A stretch of DNA of 64,000 bases from Antedon bifida (taxonomy: Eukaryota > Echinodermata > Crinoidea > Comatulida > Antedonidae). The DNA lies in NCBI GenBank assembly GCA_963402885.1, contig OY727095.1, positions 12,839,001-12,903,000 on the forward strand, in the 5' to 3' direction. Below the pieces are notes generated by a model, which did not search any database, had not been told where the DNA came from, and worked only from the letters and a program-made list of their open reading frames with translations. Positions 48,328 to 59,041 of this stretch are shown here, in pieces. The translations under genes were made by a program, and so were the position numbers. Each line of letters starts with the position of its first letter. The first letter of the stretch is position 1.

Positions 48328-51300
48328 ATGTCCCCAATATTTTCACGATTGAGTTGGACAGCAAGGAAGCGGATGTTAGCGGCACTGACCGTCGGTGGCG
48401 GTTTCGTAGGGGCGGCAGCTCTCAAGAACGCCGCATATGCCAAATCCGAAAACAATCGTAAATGCTATCCTGCGTCTGCGGATTTCCCTGACGTTAAAAA
48501 CCACAATAATTTAATGGCGCGCTACATGACGCCACGTATCTACGCGGAGTTGAAGGACCGCAAAACGCCGAGTGGTTTCACGATCGATGACTGTATTCAG
48601 ACGGGAGTTGACAATCCTGGTCACCCTTTCATTGAAACAGTTGGAATGGTTGCTGGTGACGAAGAGTCATACGAGGTATTTGTTGAAACCAATTTTCAGT
48701 CTGCAGTTTCAAAGGAATAAGGTTTATCGCGTGCGCGACGCATGGTGGGAAGGATTTATGAGCAAACGTCACGACGCGTACGTAGGCCTACGTGATTTGT
48801 TGTTTGTACTTGTACGTACGCGTCGTGACGTTTGCTCCCAAACCCTTCACATTTATGCATTGTACAATGACGTTCCTCTCGCAAAATCAAGCTATTTGCG
48901 ATAAACCTTAGGCCTATGTCTGTGAAGTTAATTAGGCCACCTAGGCCTGGATTCTAGAAAACAAACTACTGTGTACAATAAAATGATATGGAAAAAATCC
49001 CAATATCTCTGAGCAGGGAAGAGTTGTTGAACTATGGCCTAGAGCCAGCTTTGTCTACTCCACTAAAGAAAGAAGAAGATTTTTTAAATGCTAACCTTAA
49101 TTAGGTGATCATTTAGAATAAAATGATCACCTATTGTTATTGTATAAAATCTTTATTGTTTCTGTACACTATTTTGTGTAACAATTATCTCAAAAAGTTT
49201 AATGTCAATGATTACAAAAATTTCAGAATATCTTTCAAATAATATAACTTAATCCTAATAAGCTTTCCAGCGTGATCACTCATCCGTGACGACATTTATA
49301 CGCCATTTTGCGAAATCACATTATCAATCATATCTCCATAATTCATTATCACATATTAATGAAATTCACTACACGTAAACTTCAGATCAAGGGTAAAAAT
49401 ATTAGCAAATAAAAACGCACGCGCACGTAGGTTCATGCGCGTGATATCGCGCGTTAAAAATTTAAAACGCTCAAAATTAAGTTTTGATCAATTTAGAGCA
49501 TGAATTAGGCCATTTGCGTGTTTAAAAAAATTACTGCGCAAAAATGCGTTTTTGCGCGCGCGATACTTAAAAAGCGTAAAAAATATGAATTTTTTTTACA
49601 AATCGCATTCTACTCACCATTCTTAGTACATTCACCAAATTTGAGTCAGTTCCGACTTAAAACAACACTATACGAGCAGGTTAAAAATGACAAAATGCGC
49701 AAATTAATTGCATCAAAGTGCTGAAAATGGTGAAAAATAAGGCCTTTTTAAAATGAATATATATAAATCTTCAGAATGGCAGGTGACCCCTAATTTTTTT
49801 AACTTATTCGGGAAGCCATTGGGTTGTAGATACATATTCATGTACACATTAGACGTACAAAATGGTATGACGTCATCAAATGGCCACTTGAATTTAAAAA
49901 TTAGTAATTTTTATCTTTTTGTGTGGGTTATCACATTCAGTAGAGCGCATCTCCGTTATTTGAGCCCGATTTTCGCAAAAATTTTAGAATGTGCTTGCTC
50001 AATTGATTATCTTTCTCATGGGTTGTAAACATTTTTATTTTGATGACGTCATCACGCGTAAAAACTTGAATAACCTAGGTCGTGTAATTTTAGCTACACC
50101 ATACATTTGAATATCTAATAGCTCTTCAGAATTAAAGGTGACCTTGAAGATTATAACATATTATGAAAGCTGTTGAAATGTAGATATGAATTCATATAAA
50201 AATTAAGCCTATCGGATGTTGCGATGTTATAATATGGCCAGTTGAAGTTAAAACGTAGTTTTTAGATTTCTTTAGTCGAAGTTATACAAATTTCAATGAG
50301 CGCGCATTGCGCTTCTACGTATCAAATTCTCTTCCAATCTTTATATTTATTTGCTCAATTCATTATCTTTCGAAATTGTCATCTTCGAGTTTATTTTGAT
50401 AATTCCATCATACCAACAAATTTGAACATGATGTGGGTCCCATAATTTTACCTATGCTACACTGTATATAGATATACAGTATATACTGTATATATTGTAT
50501 ATGACACATAATAGGTACAACTCAGCACTATAAGTGTATATGCATCATGTCATAGGATGGCGTACATCAGCTTTTTACGATCGTATGTTAACGTACGTGC
50601 ATGTTTAAAAAATGTTAATTTCATTAAAATGATAAAAATGATCACCTATAATTCGTCAAAGTGACGAATTAAATTCTAGTTTATCTTAATATTTTCATTC
50701 TTTATAGGTATTTAAGGAGCTATTTGATCCAATTATATTTACACGTCATAATGGTTATGGACCAGAAGACATCCACCCAACAGATCTCGATTCGTCCAAG
50801 ATCCGAGGTGGAATCTTTGACTCGAAATATGTCTTGTCCTCTCGTGTTCGTACAGGACGTAGCATTCGCGGTTTGGATTTACCGCCTTCCTGTACACGGG
50901 GCGAACGACGAGAAGTGGAACGTGTAAGTTTGATTTCTGCATGCAATATTATCTAATTATAATGCGTGTTGATTATTTTTAAAGTATCATCCGGGTTGAG
51001 AGCACAAAGTGGAGAAGAATCCGTTATAATAATAAGCTTTATTTATTCACGGACACTTAAAGGGTCTTTCACACCTGTTCCGGCACGGTTCCGGTCCGGC
51101 GAATCAACATCAAAATGTTTCGTTTTCACGACGCTCCACGCGGCTATGAGCCAATGGATATGGTGCGTAGCCGCGTGAAAACGAAACATTGACGTTCGTT
51201 GGATTTTCCGGCGCCGGACTGGAACCATGCCGGAACAGGTGTGAAAGACCCTTAACTCAACTGAAAGTTGTTTTTCAGTAAGGCCATGAAACGCTCAATA

Positions 51301-53868: not shown

Positions 53869-56800
53869 ATGTCCCATCAAGATACGAGGCCGGTAGTCAA
53901 ATACCTTTTATTTGTTTTTAACTTCTTATTTTGGGTAAGTAAATAGTGTTTCCGATTTTATCACTACTGTACTGTATCGGATGTTAATGTTACTTTCGAG
54001 TTTCACAATGAGTCATCGATTGGGCTAGGCCTAATGTCCCTACAGCCACTTGTAGACTGGCTATCAAAAGACTTTTTTAAAGGTATTGTCTAAACCGACA
54101 CTGTGGTCGAATCGACCTAGGCCTAGACTATTATAGGTGGCGGCTAATATATCAGAATTATATTATAGTATCTAGGCCAGTACACAGTAATCTCTCTCTT
54201 ATTTATACTTATATTAAGTCGGATTATTGGCAAGTGTTTGATTTGATGTAATAGAATTACTAAAAAATACTGTATAAAATTTAATTTTAAAACTAAAAGA
54301 AATAAATAATGTATAGGCCTAGGCCTAATTATTAATTAAGGCCTAATAAAAAAATATTTAAAAAAAATTATGAGACCTGGGAGTTGTAATGAACATATTA
54401 ATGATACCAAAAGGCATTGTGATCTTCAATATGAAGTATTTCCTTTGTATGCTTATACTATATAATAAGACTACTAAGTTTTACCAAATTATTTTGTATT
54501 TATAGTTATTTGGCATTGTGTTGATGGGAATTGGCATATGGGCACTCGTAGAGCGAGAAAGTGAGACAAGCATCAACTCTTACGTGGACTTCTTCACGGA
54601 CCCTTCAATTGTTCTTATTGTTGTTGGTGCTTTGGCCTTTATTCTCGGTTTCTCAGGATGTGTTGGTGCACTCCGTGAAAATTGTGTGCTTCTGACGATT
54701 GTAAGTATTACAGTACAGAAAGAAAGTACTGCAACTTTACCTACGAAGTAGCTTCGTAGATAAAACGTACAGTAAATCTTAAAAATGATGACCAACTGAC
54801 ATTTACAAATATGATTATATACAGTATTCCAAGTGCGAATAATGTATCAGCAAAACGTAATGTAAATATGCAGATTGAATGCCTTTTTAGCTAAATATTA
54901 CAATTTAAATTGTCATTTCTTTACCAATCTGCGTACATCTTTAATATTTCAGTATAAAGTCTAATAATTTGTCATTTAAAAAAAAATTTGTACGACTAAC
55001 GATATAAATATTAAGAATTGCTATCATAAACAAAACCTCTAAAATTCATTTTAAAATTGTGTAAATGTTCTATTAATGTACAGTATTAACCAATATTTTT
55101 ATTTGTGCGTAGTTCTACGCATCCTTAGCAATCCTTTTCTTAATAGAGGTGATTTGTGGGATAATGGCCTTTGCCCTTAAAGGGAAGGTAGGACTTGCTA
55201 GTTTGCATGAAATGCATTTGACCTTTGACATGTATTTGACTTTGACATGACATGCTGCATTTGACAGACCAATGAAGCTTGTTGCCATATGCATTTGCAC
55301 CATTACATTGGCAGTTTGAAGAAATATTAACAACATTTCATGCATGTATACCCTTTTTCCTAAAAAGTTTGTCTGTGTGTGACATTCACAGTGATACAGT
55401 ACTGTATACTGTATTTCTGTATACAATAAATGGTGAATGTAAAAGCATGCTACATATATTTTGTTGATATACTAAATAAACTATCAAAATTAGAAACCAT
55501 TCTGGATAGACAGAAAGACGAGAATTCAAACGGGCATTTAGCCAAAAATACTTTACTTTAAATACATTAAACTTTTTGTTTCTTTGTTCGTCATGTGATG
55601 TCTTCAGGAAGTATCTAATTAGTAGGAAACTTTGTTACATCATCATAATTAAAGTTAGCGAGTCACCCGCCGATGGGAAGTATGTAACTACTGTAAAATG
55701 AAATTTCACTTTTTAGTTTGACAAAGTTTCAAGTGAACAGAAATCAAACTTTGAAAATGTTGATAATATTAAATTATCTTTCCAAACATTTAGTTAATTA
55801 ATAAATACATTTAATGATTGATATTTAAAACAAAATATTTATAGTATTCTGTATATTAGTATTAATAAAGTTAAATAGAGTTGAAAATTATTCAAATTGA
55901 TAAATAACCAATATAAATGTATCATACAGTACATATAAAGTATTTTGCTTTGTGTTTTGGTTGAGTCTCATATTATTAGCGTAGATATTTGTAATCTTCA
56001 TAGCACAGAACTTAAAAAATTTACATTGTAAGTTGAAATATAAAACCAAATTGAATTGAAATCTAAAACAAAAAGTTAATGAATATTTTTGTATACTTTT
56101 TTAGTGTCTATTATTTAACTAACAGCATGTGTTTTTAACCTGCATTTTTCCTGCTGATCTTGATTTCAGTTTTACTTGCTTTTGCTCCTAATTTTTGTCT
56201 TGGAAGTTATGGCAGGTGTTCTAGTGTTTATATATTCAGATGAGGTAAGATGATTTACTAACCACCTGTAAATAGCATAATGGGGTCATTATATTATAGG
56301 GATGCAAGACAAAGAGATTAAACAATATCTTGTCAATATTACAATCTTTCTATGTGCGACAACCTATGATTTGATTTCAATACCAAACGAAAACAGATAA
56401 AAACGAACAAAAAACGCAATCATTTTGTATGGTACTGGGGATCATAGCGGCCAAATGTAGCATAATGTTGACCCATCTACAATTTATGCTAGGTATAATT
56501 TTAGAAAATCTAGCATAATCTGGCATTATGAAAAATCAATTCTGAAGCATATTTCCCATGATCTAGCAATTTTTCTAGAATTTTTTCGAAAAAATGTAGT
56601 ATAATTGTAACCAAATCTAGCATAATTTGGCCAAAAACCAGATAACTTTTCACTTTTGTGGTACATACACAATATTCATATACCGCCCTCTGATACAATG
56701 TTTGGTGACATTTGGCCATAATTGTGCCTAGCATGACATGGCATAATTTTGTGCTGCCACCTAACATAGCGTTGGCCACCCTGCTGGGGATAGCAGCCCT

Positions 56801-59041
56801 ATGACTTATGTTTATTGTGTTCATGGTTGGACCTCCAATGGAAAAACAATCAATAAGCAATAAAAAAAAAATAACTATAGTTTTGTGAAAGATAACATAT
56901 TTTGTTTTGTTTGATAGTTTGAACAGGAAGCAAATGATATAGTTGAAACATCAATAATGAGATACAGACAACCTGGCTATGAAGATCTCACAAACTTCAT
57001 TGACTTTTCACAAAGAACGGTAAGTAACATTTACCCCTTTCACACCGAACCTTAGCAGTGGTCTCCGGAGACACTCCGGGTTGGTGATCATTCAAAATGT
57101 TGAGAAACTCAGGAAATTCCCCATTCACACCAACCTAGCAACACCTGGGTTTTTTAAATAAAATCATAAGTACCGCCCTCTATTTTGTTTGTTTACTTAG
57201 CGACGATCATAATCATTTTAATTGATAATATTTTAAGTCATATAATGTTTTATATATGCTAATTATTATTTTTTAGATCCGCTATATATTTTGTACACAT
57301 ATGATTGACCTAAAAACTCACGAGTTTGATGTTGGTACCTTTCACACCAAAACCCCGGTGTTTTGAACTCCGAAGTTGTTTGATTTTACTTTTTACACCA
57401 AAACACCGGGGCGTCAACTCCGGAGTTCAATTTCAAATGTGGCCTTTTTTGTGATTCAAGTTAATAATTACAATGTTCACAGCAGATGAATTATGGCAAA
57501 GACATACTGTAAATACATTAGGTTATTCTTTCAACAGTTTGAATGTTGTGGAGCTGCTTCAACATATAACGACTGGACCAAGAACAAGTACTTTAACTGT
57601 ACACCAAGCAACCCAAGTCTTGAGAGATGTGGCGTGCCATACTCATGTTGTCTCAATAGTAATACTGAAGAAGAAATTATCAATACACAGTGTGGTTACA
57701 ACACACAGCGTTTATCAGTGAGTGATCATTTAGTAATGTTAGACTGATTTGCATTTCACTAAATATTTTCTTTACAATTTTTTTATTTGATACGCATCCA
57801 ACAGCGAGTGACTCTCCAATTACATGATGGATAAACTATTTAATACTTTATCGTGCTTATAAACTAAGTCTCATTTAAGGCTTAGGGAGTGGAGTTGAAA
57901 GGGTCGTGAGTTGCAACCCTGGTAATAGGTCAGGATTGTGAGTTACAACCCTGGCACTAGGTCAGGATTGAGCCCCAGATGGACTTGGGATTGGAAGGCA
58001 AGCATGTTAACCACCAAGCTACAGCTCCACTACTAAATATTAAATAGCCAATGTTATGACAGATGTGGCGTGCCATACAAGTTATGATGTACTGTACTAC
58101 TAGACAGAAGATATCAAAATTTTAAAAAGTGGACATTTTAATACAGTAGTTTAATTGTTCAATTCAATCCTACGCCTTAAAAAAATATTAAGTGGCTGCT
58201 TGTGACATGTTTTTTTAAATTTTTCTAGGTCGTGGAAGCAAACGATAAGATCTATACAGTGGGTTGTGTTGAAGCTCTCTTAGATGAAATTAAGACAAAG
58301 AGTTACATTGTGGGAGTTACTGTTATAATGGTTGCAGCCTTTCAGGTTTGTTATTCTAACCTAACTAGTATTGACTGTGCTTTTCTTGGGACAAATTCTA
58401 GCTTAAGAACTTCTAACCAAGATGTGGAGGTTATACCATCAGCTAATTTTCTATTTTTGTTTTATATGAATATGTTCTAGAACATTCTATGGTTACAAGG
58501 TAACAGATCAAAAAATATTATTTCTGGCAGCGACCAATCTGTATTGATCTTCAAATACATTTTTATCTGTTGACTCTTTTATTAATGGCCTTTTTAAGGC
58601 GTTAGCGTAATGATAAAGTTTAAATGAGCATGTTAAACAAATTTGTGGTTTGTGTTTATTCTGCATTCTGATATTGTGCTTTTTACCGCTCAACAAACAC
58701 ATTCACTGATAACTGATTGGGAAATCCAAGACTTCACAAAGGTTAGAGATATGCAAAGATTTGGATGTTAAATAGTATGTTGGTATAGTAACAAAACAAA
58801 CAGTAATACAATATATCCAAACCTCAATACAGATGTAAATGTGTTTTATTAATAGGGTTAAATGCTAAACAATTACTACATATTTGTATAATTACAATAA
58901 TAAATATAATAATGCAATAATTACTAAATTAATTTTCTTTTTAAACAGATCACTGGAATCGTTTTAGCGTACGTTCTTTGCCGAGAGATCGAAAATGAGA
59001 AAGAACGTTACGAACACTCATCCCGAGCACGTCTCAACTAA
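53869..59041 (+). CDS. TSPAN33: TspanC8-type tetraspanin (TSPAN33-like)
   Basis: Exons: 53869-53934, 54506-54700, then either 55113-55187 or 56170-56244, then 56918-57019, 57538-57717, 58229-58345, 58949-59041. All are phase 0 with GT-AG sites; using one of the two alternative exons gives 275 residues. It is a four-helix plasma-membrane protein: TM1 about 9-34, TM2 about 55-77 followed by GCVGALREN, TM3 88-112, large loop about 113-231, TM4 about 232-257. The loop has CCG (149-150), C167, C177, CC 183-184, C198 and C219, eight cysteines, which defines the TspanC8 group; vertebrate members bind and traffic the protease ADAM10. FNCT (166-168) is an N-glycosylation site. SERCGVPYSCC-like and NTQCGY blocks are closest to TSPAN33 and TSPAN14; the exact orthologue is uncertain. 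Confidence 0.93.
55113..55187 (+). CDS. Tetraspanin alternative exon 3a (TM3 version 1)
   Basis: A 75-bp phase 0-0 exon flanked by TTTGTGCGTAG and GTAGGACT. It encodes 25 residues FYASLAILFLIEVICGIMAF then ALKGK: a complete membrane helix with the conserved Glu of tetraspanin TM3. It would join ENCVLLTI upstream to FEQEANDIV downstream exactly as exon 3b does. Less like the family consensus (LELxAGxLxFVFxD) than 3b. Confidence 0.75.
56170..56244 (+). CDS. Tetraspanin alternative exon 3b (TM3 version 2)
   Basis: A 75-bp phase 0-0 exon flanked by TTGATTTCAG and GTAAGATG. It encodes 25 residues beginning FYLLLLLIFVLEVMAGVLVF and ending IYSDE, close to the tetraspanin TM3 consensus. It aligns without gaps to exon 3a (shared FY, the Leu/Ile-rich core, the E-V pair and the Gly), so the pair arose by exon duplication. 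Confidence 0.85.
56691..56704 (-). promoter_or_regulatory. Recurrent TACCGCCCTC motif (CTCF-like)
   Basis: TACCGCCCTCTGAT; on the minus strand ATCAGAGGGCGGTA. The same ten bases recur at 57171, 46272 and 26400. It lies in the tetraspanin intron after exon 3b, within a diverged repeat (about 56430-56800) rich in CTAGCATAAT. Confidence 0.35.
57030..57440. repeat. Foldback-like repeat rich in TTTCACACC and CTCCGGAGT
   Basis: CCCTTTCACACCGAACC at the left, and CACACCAAAACACCGGGG with CAACTCCGGAGTT at the right, recur with variants. It is probably a decayed MITE cluster in a tetraspanin intron. It also contains TACCGCCCTCTATT (57171-57184). Confidence 0.45.
57790..58034 (-). mobile_element. tRNA-derived SINE, copy 2
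   Basis: The same family as 2814-3012: ATACGCATCCAACAGCGAGT at one end and the tRNA-like head on the minus strand (AGCTTGGTGGTTAAC, then GGGGCTCAATCC as a worn box B) at the other. It has an internal duplication of the GTCAGGATTG block. In a tetraspanin intron. Confidence 0.7.

Follow-up and report, generated by a model that had tools for sequence, protein, structure and literature searches.

Why should a tetraspanin gene carry two exons for one and the same membrane helix? The question is raised by a locus on contig C8 of a genome of 315.6 Mb in 27 contigs. The animal is most likely an echinoderm: its mitochondrial cox1 (contig C27) carries AAA at four conserved points where Asn is the expected residue, has four AGA/AGG codons compatible with Ser, and uses ATA where the usual residue is Ile, a pattern that corresponds to the echinoderm code (table 9). 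The stretch of DNA that was analysed (positions 12839001-12903000 of the contig, 64 kb, called "the window" below, with positions counted from its first base) holds a complete tetraspanin gene on the + strand, in which exon 2 is followed by two 75-nt exons, each encoding a version of the third transmembrane helix (TM3), before the common coding sequence resumes with exon 4. The best explanation, to which we assign a probability of roughly 0.84, is a prediction from sequence: the gene has two old, intact TM3 exons that are spliced in a mutually exclusive manner.

The gene and its family

The tetraspanin gene lies ~560 bases 3' of a neighbour that we take, from our own reading of its exons, to be creatine-kinase-like. 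(An incidental observation: an intron of this neighbour contains a fold-back element, at window 51060-51253, with 55-nt arms that are 85% complementary, and shorter arms nested; it looks like a small non-autonomous transposon.) Coding exon 1 (53869..53934, +; ATG start, donor GTAAGT, phase 0) specifies the N-terminus and the start of TM1. Exon 2 (54506..54700, +; open, GT-AG, phase 0), which falls within the match to the tetraspanin Pfam profile PF00335, supplies the remainder of TM1, the small extracellular loop, TM2 and the small intracellular loop. The two alternative exons come next: 3a (55113..55187, +), encoding the TM3 version FYASLAILFLIEVICGIMAFALKGK, and, beyond an intron of 982 nt, 3b (56170..56244, +), encoding FYLLLLLIFVLEVMAGVLVFIYSDE. 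The large extracellular loop starts in exon 4 (56918..57019, +; open, GT-AG, phase 0); its cysteine-rich part, with seven of eight cysteines, is encoded by exon 5 (57538..57717, +), as placed by alignment to TSPAN15. In the gene model, exon 6 (58229..58345, +) adds the final loop cysteine and TM4, and exon 7 (58949..59041, +) the end of TM4, the C-terminal tail and the stop. All of the introns are GT-AG and of phase 0, in agreement with the phase 0 reported for ancestral tetraspanin introns (PMC2650405). The positions that the initial annotation had assigned to 3a and 3b, their lengths (75 nt each), their phases (0-0) and their GT-AG boundaries are all as stated there. The predicted protein has 275 residues with either TM3 exon, 300 with both and 250 with neither.

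The tetraspanins are the sole family named by a Pfam search with this protein: PF00335 is matched over profile positions 1-224 of 225, with 188.7 bits when TM3 comes from 3b and 180.6 bits when it comes from 3a (the cut-off being 32.1), while including both TM3 exons in one protein yields 178.0 bits, in two stretches. Among solved structures, human TSPAN15 (8esv_B; E = 4e-42 with 3a and 1e-41 with 3b) matches best, with a lead of more than 50 bits over the next. Exons 5 and 6 contribute eight cysteines to the large loop, arranged as CC, C, C, CC, C, C. Eight loop cysteines are the mark of the TspanC8 proteins (TSPAN5, 10, 14, 15, 17 and 33), and since TSPAN15 is itself one of these, the original assignment of the gene to the TspanC8 group is supported on both counts. 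(TSPAN33 is perhaps the member that it resembles most.) Two further genes, on contig C11 (L061 and L062), are TspanC8-like by similarity. The diversity of the TspanC8 group is known from separate genes; here, in contrast, one gene offers two TM3 helices.

Two versions of one helix

How good is the case for regarding 3a and 3b as versions of the same exon? Their 25-residue peptides align without gaps, as had been claimed, and share 8 of 25 residues, two of which are a Glu (column 12) and a Gly (column 16); the other 17 residues differ, and 33 of 75 bases are identical at the level of DNA. A TM3 score, defined as the match to nine TM3 exons of other tetraspanin loci in the same genome, was computed for every stop-free 75-nt segment bounded by AG and GT on either strand of the window (n = 68). 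Exon 3b ranks first (43.8), 3a ranks second (34.2) and the third candidate scores 1.3; the mean for the 66 segments that remain when 3a and 3b are set aside is -19.9 (s.d. 9.4). The nine reference exons, scored among themselves, range from 22.9 to 47.4, and 3a lies within that range. Of 100,000 sequences made by shuffling the residues of 3a, one matches 3b as well as 3a does; against the other TM3 exons, none of 20,000 does so. The pairing of 3a with 3b is, by these comparisons, not a product of chance, and the proposal from which this analysis started, namely that a TspanC8-type gene contains two interchangeable TM3 exons, is strongly supported by sequence.

The two helices differ in character. 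Exon 3b encodes what is, by its sequence, the more canonical TM3, leucine-rich and with an acidic outer end (YSDE). The 3a version is lighter: small residues (A, G, S, C) make up seven of its first 22 positions and two of those in 3b; its outer end (LKGK) is basic, and it lacks a Tyr at column 22, where 10 of 13 other TM3 exons have one. Those 13 come from other tetraspanin places in the genome at which a 75-nt, phase-0 TM3 exon is present in single copy; a second copy was found solely in the gene considered here (the count covers both strands of stretches of ~3 to 6 kb at part of the 60 tetraspanin matches, which leaves room for undetected genes and for second copies lying farther away). Searched against the whole genome, 3a has one match as DNA and one as peptide.

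How long might the two copies have been kept? Sorted by codon position, 3a and 3b are identical at 11, 16 and 6 of 25 first, second and third positions, respectively. Set against shuffles of codon order, the agreement is beyond chance at second positions (P = 0.003), borderline at first positions (P = 0.053) and random at third positions (P = 0.57). The outcome of decay without selection was simulated for a copy of 3b at six settings, with 4,000 runs per setting. Stop-free products with a TM3 score of at least that of 3a arose in 503 of 4,000 runs when 80% of sites were left untouched and in 19 of 4,000 at 60%; at 40, 30, 20 and 10% untouched sites the yield was 0 of 4,000 each. Decay to a 3a-level score together with a third-position match of 6 of 25 or less was a combination that never occurred in the six settings, 4,000 runs each. 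Because third positions are at chance, yet the TM3 pattern has been kept, unlike what is seen in neutral decay, both copies appear to be old and constrained: in this single genome both exons are intact, and their state fits a constraint on amino acid sequence that was kept up until third codon positions had become random.

Where 3a came from is a separate matter. A blastn comparison of the flanks of 3a and 3b finds only the 982-nt intron that they share, a self-matching palindrome and short matches with E = 0.068 or worse, and the peptides of exons 1, 2, 4 and 5 have no second match at E <= 0.01 within 53935-56917. With the flanking introns showing no similarity above chance, only the exon is recognisably duplicated, if the copying took place in this gene in the first place. 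Bootstrapping the columns 2,000 times puts 3a nearest to a TSPAN15-like gene (C11:0.63 Mb) in 688 replicates, to 3b in 493 and to CD81 in 333; the nearest neighbour of 3b is another tetraspanin (L015) in 1,275 of 2,000. The origin of 3a is not decided by 25 residues.

Topology and the choice of exon

The path of a tetraspanin chain starts in the cytosol, passes through TM1 to the outside, returns through TM2 to the cytosol, leads through TM3 to the large outside loop, and ends in the cytosol after TM4 (PMC6773723). Since TM3 thus runs outward, connecting the cytosolic loop with the large extracellular one, the ALKGK of 3a and the IYSDE of 3b, which the initial annotation had taken for a cytosolic edge of the helix, were put on the wrong side of the membrane: they are extracellular and sit where the large loop is rooted. 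Over the final four residues of the exon, the net charge is +2 in 3a and -2 in 3b. The associated claim of a constant ADAM10-facing loop consequently survives for the body of the loop but not for its root, which changes from +2 to -2 with the exon. The TM3 exon ends at residue 112 of the protein; for comparison, the loop of Tspan14 is reported to start at residue 114 (PMC4751363).

Double inclusion and double skipping should both invert the cysteine-rich loop to the cytosol with the reading frame still open; exon lengths divisible by three provide no frame safeguard against either event. It is because both exons, or neither, would misplace that loop across the membrane that we infer exclusive use: this is the only pattern that would keep the tetraspanin topology. 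A like argument has been made for exon pairs encoding membrane helices, for which cassette splicing is considered very unlikely because it would flip the side of the sequence that follows (PMC5740500). The Pfam score is also higher with one TM3 (188.7 or 180.6 bits) than with both. The proposal, then, is of an ancient 75-nt TM3 exon present in two diverged copies, one of which would be used in each mature transcript; the two isoforms would share the four-helix layout and a disulphide-rich loop body, and would differ in TM3.

What might impose the choice? No steric block between 3a and 3b is to be expected, because the intervening intron is 982 nt long. Base-pairing between introns, which the initial annotation had suggested looking for, offers no help: ungapped pairings among the introns flanking the two exons fall within the range of shuffled sequence, and in each of the three flanking-intron pairs between 41 and 47 of 60 shuffles do at least as well as the best real pairing. 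The best of seven intron pairs (ungapped, 60 shuffles each), intron 1 with the intron after 3b, is reached by 3 of 60, which is not striking given seven tests. Splice sites were scored and set beside a small local sample of 20 donors and 21 acceptors. The 3a donor (8.3; 14 of 20 lower) is ordinary and the 3b donor (10.8) is the best seen, the 20 others spanning 1.7 to 9.9. Among the acceptors, that of 3a (10.0; 13 of 21 lower) is good and that of 3b (4.1; 2 of 21 lower) is weak, the 21 others spanning 1.5 to 13.9. The shared sites are a low-scoring exon 2 donor (3.7) and an ordinary exon 4 acceptor (8.6). Joining 3a to 3b would be disfavoured by its need for the weak 3b acceptor.

A candidate for the regulator is RBFOX. 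Two copies of TGCATG, a candidate RBFOX site, follow 3a on the + strand at distances of 17 nt (55204..55209) and 154 nt (55341..55346); the motif is one of 11 patterns that were counted. No other pair of TGCATG within 200 nt occurs on the + strand of the 64-kb window; on the minus strand such pairs start at three places, two of which overlap. Among the 13 other TM3 exons, the 300 nt downstream contain TGCATG in one case and GCATG in four. RBFOX at a downstream intronic UGCAUG usually promotes use of the exon upstream, and the two UGCAUG just 3' of 3a weakly suggest RBFOX control: binding there would select 3a, and the weak acceptor of 3b might help to keep 3b out. On the other side of the intron, a branch-point-like CTAAC (56119..56123, +; 51 nt before 3b and one of several there) adjoins a weak GCATG (56125..56129, +), an arrangement that would fit repression of 3b; as an RBFOX repression site this GCATG was given little weight, since GCATG is also found within 100 nt upstream of 3 of the 13 other TM3 exons. 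RBFOX-like RRM exons are present at C9:20.02-20.03 Mb, where the best two of 14 RRM matches have 88% and 69% identity to a human sequence; a profile search for the RBFOX C-terminal domain (PF12414) produced no match, its controls being equally silent. The intron after 3a is also richer than the window in TTGAC (6.1 vs 1.4 per kb) and in TGTGT (4.1 vs 1.8 per kb). (A separate observation on the same intron: an 18-nt tandem repeat, in 2.4 copies with the consensus TGACATGCATTTGACCTT, is located just 3' of exon 3a, at window 55208-55249.)

Could the second exon mean something else, or nothing? If 3a were a dead or dying TM3 copy, with only 3b in use, then the greater closeness of 3b to other TM3 exons (43.8 vs 34.2), the better Pfam score with 3b and the absence from 3a of the column-22 Tyr found in 10 of 13 other TM3 exons would all fall into place. 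But 3a is free of stops and has ordinary splice sites, its TM3 score is inside the reference range (22.9 to 47.4), and it retains the TM3 pattern with third positions that are random relative to 3b, which is what the neutral-decay simulation never combined; a dying 3a is very improbable indeed. As for the second copy being an artefact of assembly or of haplotypes, one would expect allelic or collapsed copies to be almost the same, whereas these share only 33 of 75 bases, have no flanking similarity beyond short matches at chance level and, in the single assembly, leave 3a with one match each as DNA and as peptide. That notion deserves next to no credence.

The two exons might, alternatively, be ordinary cassettes, in which case transcripts with both or neither would be real and would generate five- or three-helix proteins. 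The frame would stay open, both exons being multiples of three, and no structural cause of exclusivity was found. There is human precedent of a sort: we guess that exon 3 of TSPAN3 and of TSPAN16 is the TM3 exon. RefSeq forms of both genes without exon 3 are listed (PMC6773723 Table 1), so that products lacking that exon can exist, and non-conventional splice forms of human tetraspanins with one to three helices are described in the same source. Cassette splicing is nonetheless quite unlikely here: both exons or neither would put the eight-cysteine loop in the cytosol, the long upkeep of two TM3-type exons would be unexpected unless they were alternatives, and joining 3a to 3b requires the weak 3b acceptor (4.1; 2 of 21 lower). 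Mutually exclusive splicing is accordingly the reading that we retain, and it does not stand or fall with RBFOX. We lean somewhat toward a version in which the pair is real and exclusive and the regulator is another factor, or simply competition between splice sites: the motif evidence is thin, having been found after counting 11 patterns, and the strengths of the sites alone could give a bias. Against that version stands the TGCATG pair itself, at +17 and +154 of 3a and without a second instance on the + strand of the 64-kb window.

What a change of helix might do

TspanC8 proteins regulate the destination of ADAM10 and the substrates that it cuts. Which of these properties could be expected to respond to an exchange of TM3? 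For TSPAN14, ADAM10 binding is reported to be mediated by the loop (PMC4751363). Loop exchange between TSPAN5 and TSPAN15 in chimeric proteins did not explain why the two have opposite effects on ADAM10 endocytosis, to which the cytosolic tails contribute, and other parts as well (PMC6892437). In CD9 and CD81, either TM2 with TM3 or TM3 with TM4 is needed, along with the loop, for binding EWI-2 (as reported in PMC4751363). Because the body of the loop is constant here, we infer a function that changes sorting rather than ADAM10 binding: the exchange of TM3 would most plausibly act on the packing of partners and on sorting, not on how ADAM10 is recognised, and it is the packing, sorting or presentation of ADAM10, not binding itself, that would be affected.

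One can go further, on doubtful ground, and conceive of one echinoderm TspanC8 gene under RBFOX control, choosing between a canonical TM3 (3b) and a basic-ended TM3 rich in small residues, perhaps of the TSPAN15 type (3a), and thereby changing the sorting of ADAM10, or its choice of substrate, from one cell type to another while the ADAM10-binding body of the loop stays the same. Elsewhere that is the job of separate TspanC8 genes. Isoforms differing solely in TM3, if they are real, would also be a clean tool for analysing the role of that helix.

Mutually exclusive exons in membrane segments are known from ion channels; some alternative exons of calcium channels swap a membrane helix, and RBFOX controls some of them. 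Surveys of mutually exclusive and tandem duplicated exons mention CACNA1C and its relatives (PMC5740500, PMC9741552); these alternative exons of voltage-gated calcium channels encode channel segments and not a tetraspanin helix. Most substitutions of tandem duplicated exons are reported to be of ancient origin, and membrane proteins are over-represented among them (PMC9741552). The human exons of these two surveys are, like 3a and 3b, neighbouring homologous exons that serve as alternatives for one segment; in the present gene, by comparison, the unit is the whole membrane helix of a tetraspanin, and the words TSPAN and tetraspanin are absent from the main texts of both surveys (PMC5740500, PMC9741552). 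A survey of human tetraspanins lists, in its Table 1, one isoform each for TSPAN33 and TSPAN5 and, among 33 genes, exchanged coding exons only for TSPAN16 (exon 7) and CD9 (exon 1) (PMC6773723). Among the open-licence papers listed, judged by title and the start of the abstract, none concerned an exon pair in a tetraspanin, in line with what the initial annotation had stated for the TspanC8 proteins. Mutually exclusive exons are, in short, of a known kind, with none described in tetraspanins in the open-licence papers listed; within the same bounds, the switch proposed here would, if true, be the first case on record of splicing that exchanges a tetraspanin helix.

Other tetraspanin loci in this genome have peculiarities of their own. 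Several tetraspanin matches occur within ~1 Mb at C12:2.2-3.2 Mb. Most of the PF00335 matches in the genome come exon by exon; four that cover nearly the whole profile in intronless open frames are clustered at C14:13568847-13587870. An intronless frame of 544 residues at C14:13568820-13570454 (L003 1474-3108) contains two tetraspanin domains placed head to tail, that is, two four-helix units in one chain. Judging from the translation, its two large loops are almost identical and its helices differ, as if the loops had recently been homogenised.
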